In this document: piece after piece, positions 2,255-36,303 of the stretch
Numbering within the stretch: the stretch's first letter is position 1
Layout of the letters: each line of letters begins with the position of its first letter
Assembly: GCF_013415885.1 (NCBI RefSeq)
Contig: NZ_CP058910.1
Span: forward strand, 62,001-126,000
Reading direction: 5' to 3'
Source: Halosimplex rubrum
GTDB lineage: Archaea > Halobacteriota > Halobacteria > Halobacteriales > Haloarculaceae
DNA: 64,000 bases
Program-made: the position numbers and the translations under genes
The notes under the pieces: model-generated
The model's input: the letters and a program-made list of their open reading frames with translations, nothing else
Told to the model about the DNA's origin: nothing
Database searches by the model: none

Positions 2255-3583
2255 ATGGCACGGAAACGGGCGAGTCGTCGTCGATTCCTGGCGACCGTGC
2301 TGGGCGCGTCGACGGTCGGACTGAGCGGGTGCGGGTCCGACGGCGACGCGACGACGACACCGGGGGACGCGGGCACAGAGACGCCGAGGAACACGCCGAC
2401 GCCGACCGCGGCTGCGACGCCGACCGACACACCGGAGCCGACCGACACGCCGACCCCGACCGACACGCAGACCCCGACCGACACGGCGGAGCCGACGGCC
2501 ACCGCGACCGCGACGCCGGGCGCGTCGTCGTTCGCGTCGTGGCCGACGTTCATGCGCAACGACGAACACTGGGGTCACCACTCGGAGGCGGCGGGCCCCC
2601 ACGAAAGCGTCACGGTCGACTGGCGGGCGGAGTTCGACCAGGACGCGGTGAACGCGACACCCGTGCTGGTCGACGGGACGCTGTACGTCGGCGCGGGCGG
2701 CTCCGGCGACGACGACGGCTCGTTCCACGCGCTGAACCCCGTGACCGGGGAGACGAAGTGGTCGAAGGACCTGGCTGCGCCGGTCACCAGCGCGGCGGCG
2801 ATCGACAGCGGGTTCGCCTACTTCGGGACGACCGACGGCGTGTTCTACGCCCTGAACACCGACGACGGCTCGGTGTTCTGGGAGTGGGACCTGGGGTCGA
2901 CGGAGGACTTCACGGCGCCCGTCGTCGTCGACCGGGGCATCTACGTCGGGTCGACTAGCAGCCGTCTCTACAAGTTCGACGCCCTCGACGGCGGTCTGGA
3001 GTGGAACCAGAACACCTACGGCGTTATCACGGCTCCGCCCGTCTACGTCGACGGGATGGTCTACGCCACGAGCGCGGACCACGAACTCTACGCGGTCACC
3101 GCCTCGGGAAGCCTCCAGTGGACGAAGGACCTCGGCGGGGCCGCCAACGGCGTCGCCCACCGGCGCCGGCGCCTGTTCGCCACCAGCGAGAACAACACGC
3201 TCACGCAGATCAACGTCCGCGGCAGCACCAGCTGGGAGACCTCCCGGGGCGAGGCGTTCGCGGCGACGCCGGCCGTCACCGAGGACCACGTCTTCGCCGG
3301 CACTCGCGACGGGACGCTGTTCGCCTTCGACGTCGGCGACGGCCGGGAACTGTGGCGAGTCACCGATCCGAGCGGCGGCGTCACCGCGCCGCCGGTCGTC
3401 GCCGACGGCACCGTCTACGTCGGCTCCCGCGACGGCAACGTCTACGCCGTCACCGCCGAGACCGGCGACCTGGAGTGGTCGTTCGCCACGAGCAACAACA
3501 TCGAGGATGCCGCGCCGGTCGTCGCCGGCGGTCGCGTCTACATCGGCAGCCAGGACGGCACCTTCTACGCGCTCGGCGAGTAG
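2255..3583 (+). CDS. Tat lipoprotein with PQQ-type beta-propeller
   Basis: The ATG at 2255 gives 442 aa opening with a twin-arginine signal (SRRRFLA, residues 7-13) and lipobox LSGC (Cys26); earlier in-frame starts would bury this signal. A Thr/Pro stalk spans about residues 35-95. The rest is a set of PQQ-like blades (repeats such as GTLYVGAGG, GVFYALNT, GTVYVGSRDGNVYAV) that should form a seven- or eight-bladed propeller on the cell surface. Such proteins act as binding scaffolds or quinoprotein-like enzymes; no quinone site is evident. One blade has the odd run VAHRRRRLF where a V-DGRLF pattern is expected, which may be a compensated pair of frameshifts. Confidence 0.85.
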   Translation: MARKRASRRRFLATVLGASTVGLSGCGSDGDATTTPGDAGTETPRNTPTPTAAATPTDTPEPTDTPTPTDTQTPTDTAEPTATATATPGASSFASWPTFMRNDEHWGHHSEAAGPHESVTVDWRAEFDQDAVNATPVLVDGTLYVGAGGSGDDDGSFHALNPVTGETKWSKDLAAPVTSAAAIDSGFAYFGTTDGVFYALNTDDGSVFWEWDLGSTEDFTAPVVVDRGIYVGSTSSRLYKFDALDGGLEWNQNTYGVITAPPVYVDGMVYATSADHELYAVTASGSLQWTKDLGGAANGVAHRRRRLFATSENNTLTQINVRGSTSWETSRGEAFAATPAVTEDHVFAGTRDGTLFAFDVGDGRELWRVTDPSGGVTAPPVVADGTVYVGSRDGNVYAVTAETGDLEWSFATSNNIEDAAPVVAGGRVYIGSQDGTFYALGE

Positions 3584-3633
3584 GCGGGCGACTCGTCGAG
3601 CCGTTCACGTCCGTACACGCCTGTTTTCGCCGG

Positions 3634-3981
3634 TCACCACGTCGCCGCCGCGAGCGTCGCCCCGAGCCAGACGGCCGCGAGCGCGCCGACCAGGTTGACC
3701 ACCGCGCTCGCCAGCGCGCGGCGGCGCTCGCCGGTCTCGAACAGCCGCACGGTCTCGAAGGCGAACGTCGAGAAGGTCGTGAACGCGCCGCAGAAGCCGG
3801 TCCCGAGCGCGAGCACCGCGGCGTCTCCCGCCGGCGCCGCCAGCATCGCCCCGAGCGCGAAGCTCCCGAGGACGTTCACCGCCAGCGTGTCGCCGGTGCG
3901 GGCGTCGATGCGCTCGCCGAGCAGGTGCCGGGAGAGCGCGCCCGCGACGCCGCCGAGGCCGACGAGGACGACCGGGTTCAC
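3634..3981 (-). CDS. crcB: Fluoride channel subunit CrcB/Fluc (second gene of pair)
   Basis: A 115-aa, four-helix membrane protein. It shows the Fluc signatures GGVAGALSRHLLG near the N-terminus, LAVNVLGSFALG (the Asn of the pore) and GFCGAFTTFSTFAFET (the Phe box and central Na+ site loop). Fluc channels export F- passively and work as antiparallel dimers; archaea often use two different subunits. The GTG start at 3981 overlaps the TGA of the upstream crcB gene (GTGA), which implies translational coupling and a heterodimer. Confidence 0.92.
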   Translation of the reverse strand: MNPVVLVGLGGVAGALSRHLLGERIDARTGDTLAVNVLGSFALGAMLAAPAGDAAVLALGTGFCGAFTTFSTFAFETVRLFETGERRRALASAVVNLVGALAAVWLGATLAAATW

Positions 3982-4394
3982 GACGCCCACCTCGCGACCC
4001 GGCGGCCGCAGAGGACGCCGGCGATGCCGAGCGCGTAGTTCGCCGCGACGTTGGCGACCGCCAGCGTCGGTCCGGCCGACCCCGCCAGGACCGGACCAGA
4101 CGATCCCGCCAGTCGCGTCGTCTCGACGGCGAACGTGCTGTATGTCGTAAACGAGGAGAGGAATCCGGTGGCGACGACCAGTCGCGTCTCCGCGCTGAGC
4201 GCGTCGGCGAAGTGACGTTCGTACAGGACGACACCGAGCGCGAAGCTGCCCAGGCCGTTGACCGCGAGCGTGGCCCAGGGGAACGCGCCCGGGAGCGCGA
4301 GCGCCACCACGTACCGCAGCGCCGCGCCCGCGAACCCGCCCACGGCGACGAGAACGAGCGGTTCCAGTCTGGTCAACGCGTGGTCGTCGGCCAT
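3978..4394 (-). CDS. crcB: Fluoride channel subunit CrcB/Fluc (first gene of pair)
   Basis: 138 aa, starting MADDHALTRLEP at the ATG 4394. Four hydrophobic helices carry GGFAGAALRYVV, WATLAVNGLGSFALG and GFLSSFTTYSTFAVET, the conserved Fluc elements. It has a slightly longer loop before the last helix than its partner. It overlaps the downstream subunit by four bases. No fluoride riboswitch (crcB motif) is recognisable in the short 4395-4545 gap that it shares with the divergent gene at 4546. Confidence 0.92.
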   Translation of the reverse strand: MADDHALTRLEPLVLVAVGGFAGAALRYVVALALPGAFPWATLAVNGLGSFALGVVLYERHFADALSAETRLVVATGFLSSFTTYSTFAVETTRLAGSSGPVLAGSAGPTLAVANVAANYALGIAGVLCGRRVARWAS

Positions 4395-15498: not shown

Positions 15499-15612
15499 AA
15501 CAGCGTGAAATCCCCGACGCGTTCGACTCGGGAGGCTCGTTGCGCTCCTCGGTCGTTTCACTCCCTGCGGTGCTTACGTCGCCTGCCTTCGTCGAACGCG
15601 TCGCCCCTTTCA
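15499..15612 (-). repeat. Covarying palindromic element, family S copy 1 (minus orientation)
   Basis: A 114-base element. The terminal motif aacagcgtgaaatcccc (15499 on) is followed by a perfect 13-bp stem, cgacgcgttcgac (15515-15527) with gtcgaacgcgtcg (15591-15603), a ~63-base core, and a second end motif cgcccctttca. Compared with the copies at 15656 and 36190 the end motifs and core are conserved while the stem sequence changes and stays paired. It forms an inverted pair with the element at 15656, filling the 15364-15858 gap. Confidence 0.8.
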
Positions 15613-15655
15613 TTCCCATCCGCACAGACGGATCACCAGCCGAAACCGGTGGGAC

Positions 15656-15771
15656 TGAAAGGGGCCGACCGCTCGTCGCCGCCCCGACGAAGTAAGCACT
15701 GGAGCGAGCGTAGCGAGCGAAGTGCGCAACGAGTCGCGGCGGTACGAGCGGTCGGGGGCTTTCACGCTGTT
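15656..15771 (+). repeat. Covarying palindromic element, family S copy 2
   Basis: 116 bases from tgaaaggggc to ggggctttcacgctgtt. The variable stem is ccgaccgctcgt (15665-15676) with acgagcggtcgg (15744-15755), a perfect 12 bp, extended by cgccgc/gcggcg. The core contains gacgaagtaagcactggag and agtgcgcaacgagtcgc, shared with the other copies. It lies just before the 3' end of the MFS gene and faces the element at 15499. Confidence 0.8.
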
Positions 15772-26275: not shown

Positions 26276-26298
26276 GAACAGCGTGAAAGCCCCGACCG
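26276..26298 (-). repeat. Solo end motif of family S palindrome
   Basis: gaacagcgtgaaagcccc plus cgaccg matches the terminal motif of the elements at 15499, 15656 and 36190, but no core or partner stem follows. Probably a decayed or partially deleted copy. Confidence 0.6.
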
Positions 26299-36160: not shown

Positions 36161-36180
36161 GAACAGCGTGAAAGCCCCCG
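36161..36180 (-). repeat. Extra end motif preceding family S copy 3
   Basis: gaacagcgtgaaagcccccg lies nine bases upstream of the 36190 element, in inverted orientation. It looks like the remaining end of a second, deleted element that once formed a pair like the one at 15499/15656. Confidence 0.6.
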
Positions 36181-36189
36181 CTCGCTCAA

Positions 36190-36303
36190 TGAAAGGGGCG
36201 ACCCGTTCGACGACGGCCGACGAAGCAAGCACTGGAACGAGCGGAGCGAGTGAAGCGCACAGCGAGTCGCCCGAGTCGAACGGGTCGGGGCTTTCACGCT
36301 GTT
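36190..36303 (+). repeat. Covarying palindromic element, family S copy 3
   Basis: 114 bases from tgaaaggggc to ggggctttcacgctgtt. Variable stem cgacccgttcgac (36199-36211) with gtcgaacgggtcg (36275-36287), perfect 13 bp. Core cgacgaagcaagcactgg and gcgcacagcgagtcgcc resembles the other copies. It occupies the 364-base gap between the hydrolase and serS, and ends 125 bases before the serS start. Confidence 0.8.

Follow-up and report, generated by a model that had tools for sequence, protein, structure and literature searches.

What is the pair of facing palindromes at 15499–15771 of this Halosimplex rubrum DNA: two small elements or one, and a mobile or an RNA element? The window, that is, the whole 64,000-nucleotide stretch analysed, corresponds to C1:62001–126000 of the 4.48 Mb host genome. 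A sequence-only reading had placed two facing elements of 114 and 116 bases at 15499–15771 and a third copy at 36190. All three positions are correct, the units lying at 15499–15612 (minus strand), 15656–15771 (plus strand) and 36190–36303.

A composite element with two hairpin units

We found 15499–15771 to be a single composite element of 273 bp, in which two hairpin units face outward from a central hairpin. Both edges carry 17-bp terminal inverted repeats of the consensus AACAGCGTGAAAGCCCC; in the left one a T replaces G (...GAAATCCCC), its sole mismatch. A third hairpin, GCCCCTTTCATTCCC...GGGACTGAAAGGGGC (15603–15665), which the sequence-only reading had missed, sits between the two units. 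The locus had been described as an inverted pair of separate elements. The terminal repeats and the centre unite them into one element. The features of the window are:

15499–15771, no strand: complete two-unit element (273 bp), from pattern and BLAST searches; architecture matched elsewhere
15499–15515, plus: left terminal inverted repeat AACAGCGTGAAATCCCC, differing from the consensus at one position
15755–15771, minus: right terminal inverted repeat (GGGGCTTTCACGCTGTT on the plus strand)
15499–15612, minus: unit 1 hairpin, outward from the centre; covariance model 126.0 bits
15516–15527, no strand: unit 1 stem A, outer-side arm GACGCGTTCGAC; covariation
15591–15602, no strand: unit 1 stem A, centre-side arm GTCGAACGCGTC
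15603–15665, no strand: central hairpin, GCCCCTTTCATTCCCATCCG (15603–15622) with CGGTGGGACTGAAAGGGGC (15647–15665); fold z −5.4
15656–15771, plus: unit 2 hairpin, outward from the centre; covariance model 111.6 bits
15666–15676, no strand: unit 2 stem A, 5' arm CGACCGCTCGT
15744–15754, no strand: unit 2 stem A, 3' arm ACGAGCGGTCG
15704–15718, plus: inner hairpin of unit 2, GC-GA-GC-GTA-GC-GA-GC (tandem G.A mismatches, GNA loop)
26277–26293 (about C1:88278–88293), plus: solo terminal repeat, interpreted as what a deletion left behind; BLAST and pattern
36162–36178, plus: copy 3, left terminal repeat
36190–36303, plus: copy 3, unit 2 with right terminal repeat (36287–36303); covariance model 128.6 bits

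As had been proposed, the arms of all three window units are complementary and their stems copy-specific (GACGCGTTCGAC, 12 of 12 paired; CGACCGCTCGT, 11 of 11; GACCCGTTCGAC in copy 3, 12 of 12). Covariance-model E values of 1e-24 to 1e-28, calculated within the window, rule out chance for the three units; two of the three are seeds of that model, of which the BLAST search and the other species are independent. Folded as single-stranded DNA, unit 1, unit 2 and copy 3 gave z scores of −2.9, −2.8 and −3.2, and the central hairpin −5.4.

Copy 3 (36162–36303) lies upstream of a serS-like gene, between divergent genes, and is an element of the 15499–15771 type from which unit 1 and most of the centre have been deleted. 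It carries a further stem sequence, as first reported, and also the left terminal repeat, a correction to the original account. Across the host genome, complete two-unit copies came up in BLAST and pattern searches at C1 77499, 457856 and 764201, alongside one-unit copies at C1 98162, 150864, 419775 and 970914, a single diverged copy close to 2.05 Mb and terminal repeats standing alone; the reversed terminal-repeat pattern, used as a control, had zero matches there. The copies at G000:C1:457856–458176 and 764201–764472 match the architecture of 15499–15771, as do elements in other species. All well-preserved copies lie within the first 1 Mb of the 4.48 Mb, and two sites elsewhere, occupied in other species, have lost their elements.

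Distribution and fold of the unit

The terminal repeat is present in all eight Halosimplex genomes searched (the species include salinum, pelagicum, carlsbadense and aquaticum), with tens of matches that are mostly paired about 270 bp apart. Whole copies and deletion remnants both occur throughout the genus. A covariance model of the unit, built on 37 seeds, matched 97 of 116 genomes of the host's family, with 22 of 22 genera represented, and 187 of the 243 genomes of the order Halobacteriales at E ≤ 1e-5, leaving 56 without a match. The search of haloarchaeal genomes that the sequence-only reading had suggested therefore recovers loci well beyond those first seen, and the discrete family it described, whose ends and core are conserved and whose stems covary, extends far outside the host genome. 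In a phylum-wide draw of 196 genomes there were 27 that matched, all 27 from the Halobacteriales. Weak matches may include chance hits; the majority of those listed span the full unit and exceed 75 bits, and inspection by eye of loci from other families showed the unit with the same ends. Copy number is uneven, ranging from 0 to at least 31 matches per genome within one genus (g10). At the Halosimplex loci examined, the elements are intergenic, about 100 bp from both neighbouring genes, and flanked by ordinary intergenic DNA. The neighbouring genes and their orientations differ among loci, and some elements lie between divergent genes.

Each unit is a rod-like hairpin composed of a basal helix (TGAAAG/CTTTCA), a GGG/GGG internal loop, stem A, stem B and a core. 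Stem A comprises 11–13 bp of free sequence; the core is conserved and purine-rich, containing tandem G.A mismatches as well as a GNA loop. Among 99 ordinary-length units taken from Halosimplex loci and one MAG contig, the arms are perfect over 12 bp in 70. Stem A is paired in 98.9% of cells in Halosimplex, with both sides changed in 11 of 12 pairs, and its covariation score is 0.915 in a plain alignment compared with 0.236 when shuffled. For 142 units, mostly from other genera, 95.7% of cells are paired and 22 of 26 pairs covary, with a score of 0.669 versus 0.164 (shuffled) and at most 0.088 (slid partners), in an alignment that was fitted to the model and is hence biased towards it. What is conserved is the pairing of the stems, not their sequence. 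Because the stems vary between copies and are almost always paired, something depends on the folded strand. The basal helix is part of the unit itself, since it covaries in the directional type described below, where the opposite terminal repeat is unseen (51 of 51 paired at two positions, with A-T/G-C and C-G/G-C changes).

The inner hairpin follows the pattern XX-GA-YY-GNA-Y'Y'-GA-X'X', where X and Y are variable and N is any base. GA/GA and the GNA loop are present in 60 of 63 Halosimplex and 58 of 70 order-wide hairpins of that shape, as counted in a fixed-shape scan. The opposite strand would read TC/TC and TNC instead. Given that the motifs exist on one strand only, it is apparently the strand reading away from the centre that is under selection. 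A GNA loop with a sheared G.A pair is described as a very stable DNA minihairpin (PMC6479982).

Site history and the directional form

Element sites are shared among Halosimplex species (flanks mostly 75–95% identical), and stems at the same site mostly differ. Relative to their flanks, some elements have been inverted in place with stems kept (L002 versus L129, L112 versus L152), and in 3 of the 99 units (L149_u1, L172_u2, L173_u1) the core is inverted inside its own stem. L147_u2 and L156_u1, at non-orthologous sites in different species, are near-identical, with an identical 80-bp hairpin. Where an element has been lost, what stays behind is a solo terminal repeat or a backbone without units; at another site H. 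aquaticum (G006) has neither the element nor its repeat-rich flanks.

The two stems of one element differ more than shuffled partners do, with a mean Hamming distance of 7.00 of 12 versus 5.40±0.32 (7.29 versus 5.65±0.50 with one element per site). Stems with three or fewer differences occur in none of 48 elements, where 11.1 would be expected. The cores of paired units are also less alike (identity 0.689 versus 0.730±0.009), and stem distance in other genera goes in the same direction, with 290 of 5000 shuffles as high. Were the stems identical, unit 1 could pair with unit 2, or the element could be deleted as a long inverted repeat; the difference may therefore let each unit fold on itself and not with its inverted partner, or arise because elements with long perfect inverted repeats are lost.

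Several further observations concern the Halosimplex loci. Beyond the terminal repeats, arrays of degenerate GACCGC hexamers run in mirror image along the two flanks, and L002, L130, L137 and L175 have a second terminal repeat 45–63 bp further out. The orientation of the centre agrees with co-directional neighbour genes in 28 of 40 cases, a weak trend because orthologous sites are counted repeatedly. The units of L123, L126, L132, L143, L145, L161, L164 and L180 contain nested inserts at similar points, each consisting of two small hairpins with variable paired stems (TGTC..hairpin..GATGA..hairpin..GAACCACG); these are possibly the family that the earlier reader called H.

A directional element of about 265 nt has the unit as its 3' part in Halorubrum and several other genera; it reads GTGGCGCG, variable hairpin, GCGAGGGA, variable hairpin, GAGGCTGGGGAGGCGTGAGG, GGGCGGGACT(C/G)(A/G)AAGGGGC, unit, GGGGCTT. 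A scan of positions −45 to −15 found a TATA-like hexamer in 8 of 24 mutually different upstreams, about 16–25 nt before the module (bins −25 and −20), compared with 1.2% of 36-nt control windows, a contrast overstated by controls drawn from whole, mostly coding loci. The consensus of 37 directional sequences folds at −109 kcal/mol on this strand versus −89 on the other, with covariation terms of 55.7 and 50.4. At one Halorubrum site, carriers have 393–551 bp between fixed flank points, and non-carriers have 65–202 bp between the same points and no element; one further genome has unrelated coding sequence there. We set aside a tree of this site, whose resolution was poor and whose presence labels, based on loose patterns, misclassify.

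In L410 and L414 of Halorubrum, the 3' end of the unit (..CCGGGGCTTCGG..) is tandemly repeated after it with a spacing of about 50 bp. Four plasmid loci (L272–L275, about 3550–4110; Halobacterium sp. DL1, Halomarina, DL31 and Haloplanus) share a highly conserved, apparently non-coding region of about 600 nt upstream of an OB-fold DNA-binding protein gene, on the far side of which is an HNH or TFB gene. This region, possibly one that serves plasmid replication or specifies a large RNA, ends in a half-element, right after the GGGGCTTTCGAG of the unit. The association with the OB-fold protein region spans only half an element, and we set this region aside as a candidate for a general partner.

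Relatives and nature of the element

No transposase or related transposon ends were identified for the element, neither a transposase nor an RNA-binding protein emerged as co-distributed with it, and no terminal-repeat pair 1–3 kb apart, as a coding element between such repeats would show, was among the matches listed. Rfam models matched only tRNA in the window at gathering level; for elements of both types, one search gave none at E ≤ 1 and another gave two spurious microRNA models. A viral origin was discarded: among the matches listed, IMG/VR patterns gave only unrelated or coding sequences, and a phage collection gave none. A transcription terminator is ruled out because elements, copy 3 included, also occur between divergent genes. 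The target duplication that the sequence-only reading had proposed to look for did not emerge from the flank comparison (shared flank words 5.54 versus 5.38±0.12 shuffled); some transposons make none.

Bacterial ERIC, BOX and REP/BIME sequences are multi-copy intergenic palindromes that fold, BIMEs occurring as inverted pairs. They differ from the present element in sequence, size and host domain, and unlike them it has stems that vary freely with pairing kept, and paired units that avoid the same stem. REP is also treated as an intergenic repeat in PMC12306157. Integron attC sites offer a structural analogy only. The inverted terminal repeat of AAV combines an outer stem with inner palindromes and exists in two inverted orientations; this too is analogy only, and the element has no viral context.

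Like MITEs, the element is short, non-coding and bounded by terminal inverted repeats. Among described classes, the small mobile repeats (SMR) of Haloquadratum walsbyi come closest. They are depicted as short and non-coding; their mobilisation is called enigmatic, their terminal inverted repeats do not resemble those of known transposons, and they make no target duplication (PMC3119063). The present element is likewise a short, non-coding haloarchaeal repeat that has terminal inverted repeats and lacks a target duplication. By the published description, however, SMR come from one species and insert mostly in other mobile elements, and internal covarying hairpin units such as those found here do not figure in it (PMC3119063). 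Palindrome-associated transposable elements (PATE) and IS200-IS605 ends resemble the element in having palindromes near both ends, no transposase and no target duplication, and ssDNA folding is plausible for PATE and element alike; PATE are described without terminal inverted repeats, whereas the Halosimplex element has them and its units are mutually inverted (PMC3119063). The literature searched, which took in few subscription journals, did not contain the element, and the family is apparently undescribed.

'Mobile or RNA element', as the locus was originally characterized, is still the correct pair of alternatives. We favour, with some reserve, a non-autonomous dispersed intergenic element of the Halobacteriales, mobile or formerly mobile, in which a folded single strand is the part that functions. 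Copy number varies, presence is patchy and there is exchange among sites, all of which argues for dispersal, and the one-strand core motifs together with covarying helices indicate selection of the folded strand. A trans-acting protein or machinery would recognise this strand, as ssDNA or RNA, and would have spread the element between intergenic sites, each site later changing by compensatory mutation, ectopic gene conversion and inverted-repeat recombination. Since the Halosimplex sites are shared between species, no recent transposition is demonstrated there, and the TATA-like boxes of Halorubrum suit an RNA gene at least equally well. We think it rather unlikely that these are copies of a new structured non-coding RNA family with its own promoters, of which the Halorubrum form would be complete and the two-unit Halosimplex form a rearranged derivative. 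Covarying helices on one strand, the boxes and the better consensus fold on that strand are what such a family would show, and stem A has more G.U than A.C cells (17:3 in Halosimplex, 33:10 order-wide). However, 16 of 24 upstreams have no box, and the boxes could belong to promoters of divergent neighbour genes. The G.U excess is weakened as proof of RNA because 20 of the 33 order-wide cells fall in one column, without which the ratio is 13:10. Moreover, the two units of a two-unit element have opposite DNA strands as their folding strand, truncations and insertions are frequent among copies, gene neighbours and orientations vary, and GNA triloops are best known in DNA minihairpins, as stated in PMC6479982, which cites Yoshizawa 1997.

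A chromosomal DNA site that is bound as an extruded cruciform and serves the host, for instance in nucleoid organisation or fork processing, could account for the long-term retention of sites and terminal repeats between species while intergenic flanks diverged, and for the spacing of about 100 bp to both neighbouring genes. It is improbable given the genomes of the order that have no match, the many sites that are empty in some species, the wide variation of copy number within a genus, and losses that leave remnants with no obvious compensation. Even less credible is an unselected fold whose arms are kept identical by template switching during replication (quasi-palindrome correction). That process fits the mostly perfect arms and the in-place inversion of units, elements and cores, but leaves unexplained the one-strand core motifs, the fact that short interrupted helices (stem B, for example) covary, and the architecture conserved across the order.

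The preferred dispersed element is carried by more than three-quarters of the sampled genomes of the order, often in multiple copies, and would be a notable part of haloarchaeal intergenic DNA. Carriers include cultivable Haloarcula and Halorubrum species (putative identities), and the stems constitute a natural test for selection on pairing, strand and non-identity of adjacent hairpins. It is conceivable, though short of probable, that the sequences define a structured RNA (or ssDNA) element that carries promoters, occurs order-wide in multiple copies, and whose stems are hypervariable yet paired, the stems of paired units being selected not to match. If so, this would be a large nucleic-acid family of a kind new for archaea. 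The element offers a way into a mobilisation or RNA system of archaea.
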